This document shows positions 19,347 through 46,668 of a stretch of 64,000 nucleotides of DNA, piece after piece. Made by a program: the position numbers and the translations under genes. Location of the stretch: contig CALARU010000235.1 in NCBI GenBank assembly GCA_937888715.1, forward strand, positions 1 to 64,000. Reading direction: 5' to 3'. How positions within the stretch are numbered: position 1 is the first letter of the stretch; every line of letters begins with the position of its first letter. Under the pieces are notes generated by a model that was given only the letters and a program-made list of their open reading frames with translations, ran no database searches and had not been told where the DNA came from. The DNA is from an uncultured Planctomycetaceae bacterium. Its GTDB lineage: Bacteria > Planctomycetota > Planctomycetia > Gemmatales > Gemmataceae.

Positions 19347-20714
19347 TTAATCTTCAGTTAGACCAGGATAATTTCGCATTACAAGATGGCTGTTAATTTT
19401 TTGGACCAAATCCAATGCAACGCTAACCACAATTAGGAGGCCTGTACCACCATAGAAACTCGCAACTTCTTGCCTTACATCCATTGTGCTTGTGATTAAA
19501 GTAGGAATAACAGCAATAATAGCTAGGAAAGCTGCACCAACATAGGTGATTCGCATCATCACCTTTTCGAGGTATTCTGAAGTTCTTTTGCCTGGCCTGT
19601 AGCCAGGAATAAAACTACCAAAGTCTTTCAAATTATTTGCAACATCTTTTGGGTTAAAAATAATCGCAGTCCAAAAGTAGCAGAATATGTAAATCATTAC
19701 AACAAAAAGAACAGTGTAGGCCCATCCTTGCCTTTCAAATAATTCTTTTAACGCAAGAGCCCAGCTCCACTCCGTTGCACTCGAAATAAAGTTAAAAATA
19801 AAGTAGGGTAGGATAAGTAAGCTGCTAGCGAAAATAACAGGCATAACGCCCGCTTGATTAACCTTCAAGGGTAAAAACTGCCTAGTACCGCCAAACACTT
19901 TTCGGCCACGTACATGTTTCGCTGATTGCGTAGGAATCCTTCTTTGAGCTTTAGTAATTGCAATAACTGCAACTACTACAATTACAAAAAGTAACATCAA
20001 GACAACTAGTTTCTCGAAACTGATGTCTTGGCTGGAACCTCCACCAAGTGTGAATATAGATTCTTTAAACTTCCCATTTTCGAAAAGTAAGGAAGCTGTT
20101 GCTGCAGGAATCCTTGCAACAATACCGGCCATGATAATTAAACTTATACCGTTACCAATCCCATATTCATCAATTTGTTCGCCCATCCACATAAGAAACA
20201 TGGTTCCGGTGGTCATCATAAGGACCATGGTAATCCAATAGTAACCTACGTTGTAATCAATGGGTTGTGTCAAAGCAAAACCCTGGCCACCCCTAGAAGA
20301 GGGTTGCATAATAAATTGAACATACATAAAAGCTTGGAAGAAGCAGATAACAACGGTTGCCCAGCGGGTGTAGTTGTTAATTTTCTTGCGTCCGGATTCC
20401 CCCTCCTTCTGGAGTTTTTCAAGGGGAGGATAAACCGCACCAAGCAATTGGAAAATAATGGATGCAGAAATGTAAGGCATAATGCCCAAGCCAAAAAGAG
20501 TTGCATTACTTAAATCGCCACCGCTGAACAGCGATACATACCCCAAGATATCACCCAAGGGGCCGCCTTGTCCTACGTTGCGGTTCATCAAGCTTTGATC
20601 AACAAAAGGGAGAGGGATGGAATAACCAACCCTGTAAACAGCGAGGAATAGAAGTGTTATAAGGATTTTATTCCGTAGTTCCGGAATAGCTAAAATTGAC
20701 CTAAACTTACCCAT
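19347..20714 (-). CDS. secY: Protein translocase subunit SecY
   Basis: 455 residues from the ATG at 20714, which has AGGAG upstream; an extension to 20753 is possible in frame but lacks a signal. About ten membrane helices. Family motifs: PELRNKILITLLFLAVYRVG, GIMPYISASIIFQLL, YGIGNGISLIIMAGI and the cytosolic loop KNVA-like FNPKDVANNLKDFGSFIPGYRPGK. It forms the protein-conducting channel with SecE and SecG. Last part of the spc segment; the gap to rplO is about 130 bases without coding. Confidence 0.97.
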   Translation of the reverse strand: MGKFRSILAIPELRNKILITLLFLAVYRVGYSIPLPFVDQSLMNRNVGQGGPLGDILGYVSLFSGGDLSNATLFGLGIMPYISASIIFQLLGAVYPPLEKLQKEGESGRKKINNYTRWATVVICFFQAFMYVQFIMQPSSRGGQGFALTQPIDYNVGYYWITMVLMMTTGTMFLMWMGEQIDEYGIGNGISLIIMAGIVARIPAATASLLFENGKFKESIFTLGGGSSQDISFEKLVVLMLLFVIVVVAVIAITKAQRRIPTQSAKHVRGRKVFGGTRQFLPLKVNQAGVMPVIFASSLLILPYFIFNFISSATEWSWALALKELFERQGWAYTVLFVVMIYIFCYFWTAIIFNPKDVANNLKDFGSFIPGYRPGKRTSEYLEKVMMRITYVGAAFLAIIAVIPTLITSTMDVRQEVASFYGGTGLLIVVSVALDLVQKINSHLVMRNYPGLTED

Positions 20715-20847
20715 ACCTTGGCTCCTGCAGTTGGGTTTACCGCAGATTGCCAATTGAGAACAATCCGGATTACCCTAAATCTTATCCCAAAATGGTAATC
20801 TTAAACCGAATGAAAGAAACAAAAAACAAAGGAAACCAATATCTAAA

Positions 20848-33334: not shown

Positions 33335-36300
33335 CTAGTTAGTTAAGAGTGCTTCTTTGTCGTCTGATTTGCCAAGGATGTTTCCTGAGCTTTCATCAAC
33401 ATAAGGAGAATTAACCTTAACTTCGGAATTCTGGTGATCACTAAAACCAGTTCCTGCGGGAACTAAGTGACCAAGAATAACATTTTCTTTAAGTCCAACA
33501 AGGTAGTCAACCTTGCCTGCCAAAGCTGCTTCGGTAAGAACCTTTGTAGTTTCTTGGAAGGATGCAGCCGAGATAAAGCTATCGGATTGAACCGATGCCT
33601 TGGTAATACCAAGGAGTTGGGTGCTACAAGTAGCAGGTTCGGGTTTGGTAAAGGTAGGAAGAACTTTGTCATCAGCTTCGAGCAATGCTCGTTCTTCTTC
33701 AAAGACATCCTTGGCAATGATTTTACCTTCTTCAAACTTAGAATCGCCAACTTTTTTGATCTTAACGCATTCACGAAGTCGTTGATTTACATGCTGGAAT
33801 GCGAAGCGATCGATGACTGAGCCAGGTAGTAATCCGGTATCGCCCATTTTTTCAACTTTGACTTTGCGAAGCATCTGGGAAACGATGATTTCAATATGCT
33901 TATCATCGATATCAACACGCTGGGTTCGATAAACAGCTTGAATTTCGCGGACCAAGTAAGCTTGAGCAGCTTCTGTTCCACTGATGCGAAGAATATCATG
34001 AGGAGCAAGAGGGCCTTGAACCAAGGCATCGCCTTCACGAACCCTATCACCAGCATGAACTCGAAGATGTTTGCCTGGGGGAACAAGATGCTCGATCTTG
34101 GTACCAGAAGGCTTGCCGTGATCATCAACTGGAATAACCCAAATAGTTCGTTTGCCACGACGCTTATCGCCAATTTCGACAACCCCAGCGACTTCGGCCA
34201 TAACGGCGGGATCACGAGGGCGCCTAGCTTCAAAGATTTCAGTAACGCGAGGAAGACCACCAGTAATATCCTGTGTACCAGAAACTTCTCGAGGAGTTTT
34301 AGCAAGGAGTGCGCCGGCAGAAACCATTTGGCCTTCACGAACTTCGATGACTGCTTTTTCAGGCATGTAGAAGAACATGAGTTTTTGGCCACGCTCATCA
34401 TTAATGAAGACTTGTGGATGAAGCTCGCCCTTATGTTCCATAATTACCCAGCGTTCTGCGCCGGTAACTTCATCACTTTCCTTGCGGAAAGTTTCGCCTT
34501 CAACGATCTCTTCGAAAGTAATTTTACCGCCACGGTCAGCGATAATTGGAATAATATGTGGATCCCATTTGCAAAGGATCTGGCCGGGAGCAACTTGCTG
34601 ACCCTTTTCAACAAAGAGAATCGATCCGTTTGGAACCGCATAGGTTTCAAGGACTTTATCTTTGGGTCCAAGGATTTTAATTTCACCATTTCGGGTAAGA
34701 GCAATCTTTTCCTTCTTGTCGTTGATAACGATGTCGAGGCGTTCGTAGCTGACAGTACCAACCTTTTTGGCCTTATGTTCGCTCTCGCCTACTTCGCGTT
34801 TCACCACCCCACCGATGTGGAAGGTACGCATGGTAAGTTGTGTTCCAGGTTCCCCAATGGACTGGGCAGCAATGATACCAACAGCCATGCCTTCTTCAAC
34901 AAGCGAGCCGGTTGAAAGATCCATGCCGTAGCAAAGTCTGCAAATACCTAGAGGAGCAAGACAAGTCATGGGGCTTCGAACGGTAATTTTGTCGATGCCA
35001 TAAAGTTCAAGCTTCAGGGCAGCTTCGGTTGAAATCATATCGTTTTCTTCAACGATAGTTTCACCAGTAACAGGGTTGCTAATGGTAACCCTGCTGACCC
35101 TACCGCGAATCGTTTCTGAAAGTGAGCGTTCAGTTTCCTCACCTTTAAGGATAGCAGATTTATCAATACCCGAGGAGGTGGCACAATCATGCATTGTAAT
35201 AACCACATTTTGAGCCACATCAGCAAGTTTTCTGGTGAGGTAGCCTGAATCTGCGGTCTTGAGTGCGGTATCTGCCAAGCCTTTACGAGCACCGTGAGTT
35301 GAACTGAAGTATTCAAGAACGGAAAGACCTTCCTTGAAGTTCGCCTTGATAGGCGTTTCGATAATGGTACCGTTAGGTTTTGCCATTAGACCGCGCATAC
35401 CAGCAAGTTGGCGGATCTGTTCGATACCACCGCGTGCGCCGGAGTGTGCCATCAAGAAAATAGGATTAAGATAAGGGCGTTTTTTGCCCGTCTCATCAGG
35501 ACGAGTGTCGTTGCGAAGATCTTCCATCATCTGTTTAGTGATAGCTTTACTTGCATTGGTCCAAAGATCGATAACGTTATTGTAGCGTTCGCGTTCAGTA
35601 ATATTACCTTTGTCGTAATTTTTGCGAATCTTTTCGACATCTTTTTCAGCTTCGATAAGGATTTTCTCTTTGGTATCTGGAGTGCGCAGATCGTCAGTTG
35701 CAAAGGAAAGGCCGGATCTAGTGGACTCGCGGAAACCGATTTCTTTCATACGATCAAGAAGTTCAATGGTAGCGCGTCTACCAAGGGCTTGATAGCACTC
35801 CGCAATAATGCGGGAAAGATTTTTGGTTGAGAGAGCAAGGTCATAAAAGGCCATGCGATCATCAAGGATGTTATTAAAGATAACGCGACCAACGGTACTT
35901 GTAACAAGGCCATTGGATTTTCTTGGAAGCTCTTCAACCTTGGTTTTGTCTTTTTCAAAACGGATTTCAGAGATGAACTTTTTGTGGATGGGAAGTCGCA
36001 CATGAATGCGGGCATGAATGCCAATTTTTCGCAGATCAAAAGCGGTGAAAACTTCTTTGGTGCTGGCAAAAGTCTTGCCTTCGCCTGATTCTCCACTTTC
36101 GCCCATTTCTCCGCGAGTTGCAGTCAAGTAATAGCAACCCATAACGATGTCCTGGGAAGGACTGATAATAGGCTGACCATTTGCAGGGCTGAAAATGTTA
36201 TTGGTGGACATCATCAACACGCTAGCTTCAACTTGTGCTTCGATTGAAAGGGGCAGATGCACTGCCATCTGATCGCCGTCGAAGTCAGCATTAAAACCTT

Positions 36301-37693
36301 TACAAACCAAAGGATGAATGCGAATGGCATTACCTTCGATAAGCACAGGCTCGAAAGCCTGAATACCCATACGATGCAGGGTAGGGGCACGATTCAAAAG
36401 AACTGGATGATTCTTGATAACTTCTTCAAGAATATCCCAAACATGATCATCTTTTCTTTCAAGCATTTTCTTGGCAGACTTGATAGTGTCTGCATGGCCT
36501 AATTCTTTAAGCCTTCGAATAATAAATGGTTGGAACAATTCCAAAGCAATCTTCTTAGGCAAACCGCACTGGTGCAATTTGAGTTCAGGGCCAACAACGA
36601 TAACTGAACGGGCGGAGTAATCGACGCGCTTGCCCAAAAGGTTTTCGCGGAATCGACCTTGCTTACCTTTGATCATGTCCGTTAGGGACTTCAATGGTCT
36701 GTTGCTGGATCCAAGAACTGGGCGCTTGCAACGACTGTTGTCAAATAGTGAATCAACAGATTGCTGAAGCATTCGTTTTTCATTTCGAATGATAACTTCA
36801 GGAGCATTGAGGTCGACCAATTTTTTGAGGCGATTATTACGGTTAATAATACGACGATAAAGATCGTTAAGATCTGAAGTTGCGAAGTTGCCGCTGTCCA
36901 GCAAAACCAAAGGACGAAGGTCTGGTGGAATAACTGGGACGCACTCAAGGACCATCCATTCGGGTTTGTTTTGTGGGCCACCCAATCCGGAATCGCGGAT
37001 AGCTTCAACAACTTTAAGCCTTTTAACAAGGTCTTTAAGCTTTTGCTTGCTGGGTTTATCTTTCTTTTCTTCAGCATCCAGGCGTTTTCTTAAATCGATT
37101 GAAAGATCGACAAGATTCAAGCCGGTGAGAAGCTTGCGAATTGCTTCAGCCCCCATTTCAGCCTTGAATGATTCGCCGTAATTATCACGACTCTTACGGT
37201 ACTCATCTTCAGTAAGGAGCTGGCTTTTTTTAAGTGGAGTTTCACCAGGATCGGTAACCACATAATCTTGGAAGTAAATAATCTTTTCCAAGCTGGTGGT
37301 TTTCATATCGAGCAAGGTTCCAAGGCGAGAAGGCATCGCTTTGAAGAACCAAATATGAACAACAGGAGCAGCAAGTTCGATGTGACCCATGCGTTTTCTA
37401 CGAACGCGACTATGGGCGACTTTGACGCCACAACGGTCACAAATCATGCCTTTGTATTTCATGCCGCGATATTTACCGCAGGAGCATTCCCAATCTTTTT
37501 CAGGCCCGAAAATTCTTTCGCAAAAGAGACCATCTTTTTCAGGTCGATAGGTTCGATAATTGATAGTTTCGGGTTTCTTTACTTCGCCAAATGACCAATT
37601 ACGAATGTCATGTGGGCTAGCAAGACTGATGCGAACAGCACCATAGTCATTAATACGATCATAAGAACTATCACCATTATTAGCATTGCTCAT
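33335..37693 (-). CDS. rpoC: RNA polymerase beta' subunit
   Basis: 1452 residues from the ATG at 37693; the ATG at 37702 gives three more residues but sits only two bases from GGAGG. N-terminal zinc site ([20 protein letters not shown], about 70-90), the catalytic magnesium motif NADFDGDQM near residue 470, bridge-helix region [20 protein letters not shown], and the second zinc site with HDCATSSG and [13 protein letters not shown]. It forms core polymerase with RpoB. Separated from rpoB by 119 bases containing a hairpin. Confidence 0.98.
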
Positions 37694-37772
37694 AGATAGC
37701 ATCGCCTCCGCAGTGAAGAATCCGGTAAAAACCCCGGCCGACCTATAGGGAAAATCTCAATAATAACACATA

Positions 37773-44612: not shown

Positions 44613-45254
44613 TTAAACGATTTCAACTTGCCAGTATTCCAATTCAACGGGAACTGGCCTTCCAAAAATAGTTAATTCCACTTTAACTCGGCCCAATGCT
44701 TCCATGATCTCTTTAACTTCGCCATCCATGCCCGCAAAGGTTCCATCTTTTACCTTGATTCGATCGCCTGCATCAAAAGCGGGTCTGCTAACAACGGTAG
44801 CTGCAACATTATCACCTTTGACACGGAGCATGCGTTCGATTTCCCGTTCACTCATTGGGGTCGGTAGTTTATGAGTGGCAGTGCCACCTACAAAATCGCC
44901 AACACCAGTGGTTTCACGGAACAAATACAAGATCGGGTCGTTAAATTCGACTTCGACCATAAGATAACCAGGAAAAAGCTTTCTTTCTCTGGAAACTCTT
45001 TTGCCCCTCCGCATTTCCGTTACTTTTTCAATTGGAATATGGATTTGGCCAAAGAATTCTTCCAGACCATCAATTTTAACTCGTTTTTCGAGTGCTTCTT
45101 TGATGGATTCTTCTCTACCACTCTGAACTTTTACAACATACCAGCTTTTGCCTAAGCTAGGTATTGCACTAATTTCAGGTGTAGAACTTTGAACGGGATG
45201 ACTTTCAGAATCTACTGAAGGGTCAACAGGTTGTTCTAAATTATCCGATACCAT
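44613..45254 (-). CDS. nusG: Transcription termination/antitermination factor NusG
   Basis: 213 residues. N-terminal NGN domain with SWYVVKVQSGREESIKEAL and ERKLFPGYLMVEVEFND, then the KOW domain GDRIKVKDGTFAGMDGEVKE. The first 35 residues are an acidic, Pro/Ser-rich extension of uncertain role. Links transcription to translation. Starts 24 bases after the secE stop; rplK follows 13 bases after its own stop. Confidence 0.97.
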   Translation of the reverse strand: MVSDNLEQPVDPSVDSESHPVQSSTPEISAIPSLGKSWYVVKVQSGREESIKEALEKRVKIDGLEEFFGQIHIPIEKVTEMRRGKRVSRERKLFPGYLMVEVEFNDPILYLFRETTGVGDFVGGTATHKLPTPMSEREIERMLRVKGDNVAATVVSRPAFDAGDRIKVKDGTFAGMDGEVKEIMEALGRVKVELTIFGRPVPVELEYWQVEIV

Positions 45255-45278: not shown

Positions 45279-46559
45279 TTACCATTTTTTCAGGTCAACA
45301 CTTGTATTTTTCTGAACACTATCCTGACCGAAGCGAAGCACCCCCGCTTTTGTCAGGAAAATTCTCCAAAACTGATCCATCGCAAACAAAAAGACAGACA
45401 TAAGAACCAAGGTGGTCAACACCACAATGGTATCATGAAACAACTTCTTTTTGGTTGTCCAGGAAACTTTATTCATCTCGGCTTCAGTTGCGATCAAGAA
45501 ATCGGCAAATACCGGAATATTGACAACTTTCCACGAGACCCATATTGCAAGAATGATTAAAAGAATCGGGCCAGAGAACTGAACTCCGGGCAGCAAAATT
45601 AAGGAACGATAGATGACAGTTCCCTCTGCAATTTTGAGTGGAACAGATTCTGCAGGTTTGCGATCATTTTTAATTAATTCGCGCGATTCTTCTTGGAACA
45701 AATCTTTGGATACTATCTCACCTACTTTATATTTAGAATCACCTGTTAACAAACCAATTTTAATAAAGAGGTTTGGATCAATGGCTGAATTAGCCATACG
45801 GAAATCTGCACGAGAAACTAATAATTGGTCTTCTGCTTTGTAACCAGCGGACTGGAGTAGAGCAAGCGTATCGCCTACTTTATCAGAGTTTATTTTAACT
45901 TTGCCAGTATAAGGTATTTCGATCTGCCAGTTGGAACCATTTCTTGCAAGGGTTTCGTTACGAACAAGAGTCATGATGCCTGTACCAAACAAAATAAGAA
46001 GACACATGATTGTGCCTCTTCGGATTTTGGATCCTTGATTTTGTTTAAAGGAATCGCGGGAAAACCAACCTTGATCTTCAATACGGTTAAAGAGCTTGAT
46101 ATTGTTAGGGCGGAAGAAAAATATAAAGGATCCGATTGCAGCAAGAGCAGCACCTGCGCCAGCCAAGCCCAACCCAAATGATTCTGGGAAGGCTCTTTTA
46201 TCGAATACAAGACTTTCAGTAAATTTGCCCCAAAAAGAATCGAAATAAAGATTGGCAAGCACTAGGACAAATCCAATAAAAATACCTGCTTTCAGACCTG
46301 GTAGTTCGTGGAATATTTTGTTTTTTCCGATGACGATGAGGGCGGTAATACCAAGGCCAAATCCTACCAAGGCAAGTGTGATATTAGATGTTGACGATAC
46401 GGGTGATTTAAAAAGATTAAACCATGCCAAAGGGAGGAGTTGCAGCAAAGCATAAGCAATAGCAACGAAGAGTACGAGAAAGCCCAAACTATAAATCGCA
46501 GGGTTAGCGTTTATAAAGGCGGGGGCTGTATCGGGTTTATTTTTAATGGTCGATGCCAT
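45279..46559 (-). CDS. secE: Very long SecE: seven predicted helices with C-terminal SecE domain
   Basis: 426 residues, against about 60-130 in most bacteria. Only the C-terminal part is SecE-like: FADFLIATEAEMNKVSWTTK followed by the conserved final helix (about 367-390, IVVLTTLVLMSVFLFAMDQF). Ahead of it are about six more hydrophobic helices near 20-45, 60-79, 88-105, 127-148, 182-200 and 318-340, and a soluble stretch of about 115 residues (200-315) between helices five and six, partly charged. The position upstream of nusG is the normal secE location. The extra helices match nothing I recognise. It is essential as the SecYEG clamp; the added part may be a planctomycete-specific membrane module. 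Confidence 0.9.
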   Translation of the reverse strand: MASTIKNKPDTAPAFINANPAIYSLGFLVLFVAIAYALLQLLPLAWFNLFKSPVSSTSNITLALVGFGLGITALIVIGKNKIFHELPGLKAGIFIGFVLVLANLYFDSFWGKFTESLVFDKRAFPESFGLGLAGAGAALAAIGSFIFFFRPNNIKLFNRIEDQGWFSRDSFKQNQGSKIRRGTIMCLLILFGTGIMTLVRNETLARNGSNWQIEIPYTGKVKINSDKVGDTLALLQSAGYKAEDQLLVSRADFRMANSAIDPNLFIKIGLLTGDSKYKVGEIVSKDLFQEESRELIKNDRKPAESVPLKIAEGTVIYRSLILLPGVQFSGPILLIILAIWVSWKVVNIPVFADFLIATEAEMNKVSWTTKKKLFHDTIVVLTTLVLMSVFLFAMDQFWRIFLTKAGVLRFGQDSVQKNTSVDLKKW

Positions 46560-46668
46560 TTTTGTCCTACGAATACCGACAGTTTAAAAAACCAGGCGAG
46601 TTAGCAATAGTTCGCCAATAATGATCATACGAGAAAATTATTTTTTTTCCCGATAATATTTTTAAGAA

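Follow-up and report, generated by a model that had tools for sequence, protein, structure and literature searches.

The analysed window, a stretch of 64,000 nucleotides from contig CALARU010000235.1 of an uncultured Gemmataceae bacterium (assembly GCA_937888715.1), harbors a secE open reading frame whose product is 426 residues long (Table 1), and the enlargement of SecE to about this length, as proposed in the initial annotation, was borne out by a frame occupying exactly the interval indicated. Residues 354-402 of the chain matched the Pfam SecE family PF00584 (E = 1.1e-11; 45 bits against a curated cut-off of 22.7) and residues 354-397 matched TIGR00964 (39.6 bits against a curated cut-off of 27.55), and a SecE family match was found in all 62 homologues of the window chain. 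It is the only above-cut-off SecE in the source genome, and the family score together with its position as sole copy beside nusG places the 426-residue chain within PF00584/TIGR00964. One flank of the gene holds what we take to be tuf, rpmG, and tRNA-Trp, and the other presumably nusG, rplK, rplA, rplJ, rplL, rpoB, and rpoC, all names being drawn from the translations and established knowledge. The terminal residue, Trp426, is shared by most SecE chains of Gemmatales (90% or more in alignment A3), the tail preceding it being variable; in the SecE of the Gemmataceae metagenome-assembled genome SKYG72 (L082), an RpoC-like loop occurs along with an additional C-terminal extension of about 65 residues.

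Table 1. Coordinates of secE, its parts, and related features in the window.
Feature	Position	Strand	Remarks
secE	45279..46559	-	426 aa and stop; ATG start
Shine-Dalgarno-like AGGA 5' of the secE ATG	46565..46568	-	kept within the genus
SecE residues 1-150, N-terminal four-helix module (TM1-TM4)	46110..46559	-	predicted N-in; Gemmatales-specific
SecE residues 151-204, cytosolic helix, GWFS..(Y/F)K..QG..RR signature, and TM5	45948..46109	-	counterpart of helix 1 in the standard planctomycete protein
SecE residues 205-323, alpha/beta domain of the TM5-TM6 loop	45591..45947	-	predicted periplasmic
SecE residues 220-316	45612..45902	-	region of homology to the RpoC C-terminal segment
SecE residues 324-404, core (TM6, clamp helix 349-364, TM7)	45348..45590	-	Pfam SecE at 354-402
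Trp426 codon	45282-45284		last SecE residue
nusG	44613..45254	-	directly downstream of secE; identity from translation and established knowledge
rpoC segment resembled by the loop domain	33626..33865	-	close to the 3' end of the rpoC gene, which spans 33335-37702
secY	19347..20753	-	single copy, normal length; partner clamped by SecE

Hydropathy analysis, both of the single sequence and averaged over the 62 homologues, revealed exactly seven transmembrane (TM) segments, and the AlphaFold2 model (mean pLDDT 81) recovered the same helices together with a compact mixed alpha/beta domain at about residues 203-323 and the amphipathic clamp helix at residues 349-364. In the family average, loops 2 and 4 were rich in lysine and arginine (2.6 and 6.2) and loops 1 and 3 were poor (0.84 and 0.70), a positive-inside pattern from which the chain is predicted to run N-in and C-out, with the TM5-TM6 loop outside, that is, periplasmic. 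The clamp helix of SecE, which follows TM6, must be cytosolic, in agreement with the predicted orientation. Members of the family have been described with one to three TM helices (PMC4632601), a size exceeded by the seven of the window chain; because that size only describes known members and is no criterion of the family models, the chain is regarded as a SecE variant rather than a non-member.

Across the phylum, SecE follows a common order: a (Y/F/H)K..QG...R signature and first helix, an outer loop leading to the second helix, and then the clamp and last helices. TM5, TM6, and TM7 of the window chain can be identified by sequence as the three helices of this ordinary planctomycete SecE, and residues ~160-204 and 324-426 combined are the homologue of an entire SecE of normal size. 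The Isosphaeraceae proteins of Paludisphaera (L113) and Aquisphaera (L121) share the YK..QG..R signature and the TM5-TM6-clamp-TM7 order with the window chain, whereas they have neither its N-terminal module nor its loop insert. Residues 312-397 also align with the second and third helices of the E. coli-type protein. The clamp helix, the TM7 core, the nusG-side position, and the sole copy are those of PF00584/TIGR00964 SecE, whereas the seven helices, the 426-residue length, the N-terminal four-helix module, and the folded, predicted periplasmic domain set the window chain apart from known SecE.

The distribution of the N-terminal module was explored with a profile of window SecE residues 1-220, which matched at full or nearly full length in 90 of the 102 Gemmatales genomes; among the remaining 12, ten had no SecE in their draft assembly and two had a truncated one, of which one frame visibly ends at a contig end (G008) and the other, an open frame of 165 aa, was judged truncated by comparison with L114 (G392). 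In the rest of the class, matches to the same profile began only at about position 152, at TM5, and the module itself was not matched in any member of the class outside Gemmatales. Named records identify the order as Gemmatales, carriers of the module including Gemmata, Zavarzinella, Limnoglobus, and Fimbriiglobus, and the module is absent from the Isosphaeraceae Paludisphaera and Aquisphaera. The profile searches indicate that a four-helix module was joined to the N-terminus of SecE in Gemmatales and has been retained wherever this could be assessed. A Gemmatales-type SecE also occurs in two public records that look mislabelled or contaminated, one under the title 'Candidatus Kuenenia stuttgartiensis' (L063) and the other under 'Bacteroidales bacterium UW1SPNA076' (L083). 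Candidate relatives of the module were dismissed as chance hydrophobic matches, namely a PHO4 Pfam match (E = 0.015, below cut-off and in a single member only) and adiponectin-receptor-like profile matches (E = 0.05).

The TM5-TM6 loop comprises 22-46 residues in most Gemmatales and about 115-260 residues in the window genus and others, with an overall range in the order of 22 to 262. In blastp comparison, the window loop matched its own RpoC at E = 3e-7 (34% over 80 residues), loops of other genera reached values down to 7e-11, and all significant matches fell within RpoC 1280-1367. Profile-profile alignment with hhalign extended over 83 columns at 34% identity (probability 99.1%, E = 2e-18), and in separate tests each of three loop subgroups and each of three individual loops matched RpoC at 92-98.8%. 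A loop profile searched in 41 genomes hit RpoC, mostly at E = 1e-12 to 1e-5, even where SecE had no insert. With the RpoC segment as query against 59 whole genomes, the matches beyond RpoC were SecE in three (G023, E = 2.4e-6; G000, 0.004; G018, 0.005) and a 16-residue RpoC-end fragment on a short contig. The window's own loop by itself gave a moderate whole-genome match (E = 0.004) and none against PDB sequences with phmmer, the strength of the relationship coming from profiles, direct comparison, and related loops. In Foldseek, RNA polymerase beta' accounted for all 50 matches listed for the loop model, with a best E of only 1.5e-3 and low TM-scores over long alignments, a modest indication. 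By sequence comparison, with negative controls, the TM5-TM6 domain of some genera can be regarded as homologous to the C-terminal segment of RpoC.

The RpoC counterpart lies just before the LLGITKAS motif and shares with the loop a length of about 83 residues and a two-repeat layout, whereas the SecE copy occupies a predicted extracytoplasmic loop of a membrane protein and has none of the catalytic or other RpoC parts. The loop was accordingly rejected as a whole RNA polymerase beta', covering just about 1280-1367 of the 1455 RpoC residues with the catalytic and remaining core absent. Long loops also occur elsewhere. Other planctomycete lineages (L054, L050, and L059) have their own long TM1-TM2 loops of about 270, 140, and 90 residues, which proved unrelated when compared with RpoC and were rejected as RpoC-like; the corresponding SecE loop has expanded independently in these lineages. 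In a Gemmataceae group (L077, L078, and L080), loops of about 124 residues reached only 25% probability against RpoC and may be a strongly diverged copy or an insert of different origin, and likeness to RpoC was not found for the L088 loop.

With regard to origin, the first repeat of the RpoC segment is found in beta' chains of diverse bacteria, some of which have the two-repeat form; in the window RpoC the 'GDT..LPG..ID' repeat occurs a second time, and the two-repeat form is also present in the beta' chains 8dkc and 9n9p. Because the repeat is widespread in beta' chains and the SecE insert is limited to some Gemmatales, the direction of transfer is read from the sequences as RpoC to SecE. 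In the window, both belong to one gene cluster and share a strand, the RpoC segment being 11.4 kb downstream of secE; in genomes with both genes on one contig the distance is 11.4-12.8 kb, again on the same strand. Copying of the rpoC segment into secE within the cluster would be the simplest route. As to the number of captures, the poorly resolved SecE core tree requires four changes in loop length, and the segment tree is compatible with a single clade of SecE loops (p = 0.447), the loops being short and fast-evolving.

This layered composition alters several points of the initial annotation. The six additional helices it counted hold relative to a one-helix SecE; relative to the three-helix planctomycete form, the excess is four. 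The restriction of SecE to about the last 70 residues was not upheld, with TM5 and TM6 corresponding to the ancestral first and second helices. The soluble domain of about 115 residues is present as the mixed alpha/beta domain of the AlphaFold2 model, yet the single polytopic module in which it was placed resolves into two unrelated additions, the order-wide four-helix module and the loop of RpoC origin in some genera. Nor is the enlargement a general planctomycete trait, given that SecE frames in other planctomycetes are mostly ~130-230 aa and the module was found only in Gemmatales, and a change in the translocon clamp itself was not evident, the clamp helix and TM7 being the most conserved part of the chain.

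Considering that SecE is normally short and that the Pfam match is confined to the last 70 residues, the long frame might be an artefact of two merged genes, SecE itself being made from a start inside the frame, a possibility already raised in the initial annotation. An in-frame ATG, GTG, or TTG was sought near 45610 and none was found, the closest in-frame start, a TTG at 45596, being without a Shine-Dalgarno sequence. Moreover, the 426-residue frame is complete, with identical start and AGGA, in six more members of the genus (75-94% identity), secE starts are similar throughout the order, and the module was never seen as a gene of its own. A dN/dS of ~0.05-0.15, alike in the N-terminal module, TM5, loop, and core, points to purifying selection over the entire chain. 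Because there is no internal start, the frame and start are kept in the genus, and dN/dS is low throughout, the 426-residue SecE is one genuine protein, and conservation leaves the merged-gene reading with hardly any credence. That the loop and RpoC merely converged on a hairpin-helix motif, the short 'GDS..G.iv....f.ee', is a somewhat better, though still very improbable, account of their likeness. Such motifs do recur, as RpoC itself bears the repeat (30-residue repeats with 9 identities) and other long SecE loops contain loose G-rich motifs, but the scores of the latter were non-significant, and an E of 2e-18 over 83 aligned columns is difficult to attribute to a short motif. Separate loop groups align collinearly with a single RpoC segment, in several cases including its PEPA[ST] end, and RpoC was the only other clear whole-genome target. 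Furthermore, 4,400 shuffled loops scored at most 9.2 bits whereas 18 of 22 real loops scored 18-53 bits, reversed ORFs used as an RpoC control gave no match, and neither the reversed profiles nor any of four unrelated long loops exceeded 0.4% probability against RpoC.

The N-terminal module could also be an unrelated membrane protein, such as a transporter or Sec accessory, that was fused to SecE and kept its own activity, and its compact set of four helices, the conservation of P43, G88, and G129, and a confident independent fold would suit such a history. However, no relative was found in Pfam, among PDB sequences, or in a fold search of the PDB and viral models, no stand-alone homologue appeared in searches of the order and class, and sequence conservation in the module is low and devoid of a polar active-site signature. 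A role as substitute for SecG, YidC, or SecDF was likewise rejected: SecG is present in 60 of 61 genomes of the order, and YidC, SecDF, and SecY are encoded separately in the source genome, so that the module replaces no Sec part. Fusion with retained activity is considered improbable. A stronger contender, albeit still an unlikely one for the additions as a whole, is neutral growth conferring no advantage and tolerated because the first SecE helices are dispensable elsewhere. The variation of Gemmatales loop length from 22 to 262 residues is in keeping with it, as is the enlargement of the same loop by unrelated sequence in other planctomycetes; the persistence of the four-helix module throughout the order wherever testable and the low dN/dS in both module and loop oppose it. 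Neutral retention is a serious rival for the loop, and less so for the module.

Taken together, the favored reading is that the window chain is SecE, the subunit that clamps SecYEG, built up layer by layer, with a probability of roughly 0.8 for its architecture and the origin of its parts. The functional steps that may follow are tentative and on balance doubtful. By analogy with the family, SecY would be braced by TM7 together with the amphipathic helix, as in other bacteria, and the topology suggests that the N-terminal helices could adjoin TM5-TM6 on the lipid-facing side of SecY, where they might form a platform for docking or stabilisation. The RpoC-like domain, which the predicted topology places on the periplasmic side next to the channel exit, may have entered secE by copying of the rpoC segment that lies ~11 kb downstream on the same strand of the cluster, and its present role might be docking or shielding at the exit, with no relation to transcription. 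The odds are about even for the broader proposal, namely that a beta' fragment copied from the same cluster into secE was relocated outside the membrane, where it acquired a working role as a periplasmic domain of the export channel, atop an order-specific four-helix extension by which the translocon of Gemmatales would be set apart as its own type.

Few parts of the universal protein-export channel are as small or as well conserved as SecE, and a search of mainly non-subscription literature found no account of an enlarged SecE or of an RpoC-derived SecE domain. In Gemmatales, the membrane part of this subunit has more than doubled and the addition has been retained. With the RpoC-derived loop, an intracellular protein of information processing has, unusually, supplied a predicted extracytoplasmic domain, apparently from within its own gene cluster. 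Gemmata and its relatives have extensively folded inner membranes, and the enlarged SecE offers a concrete, testable handle on whether the Gemmatales translocon differs.
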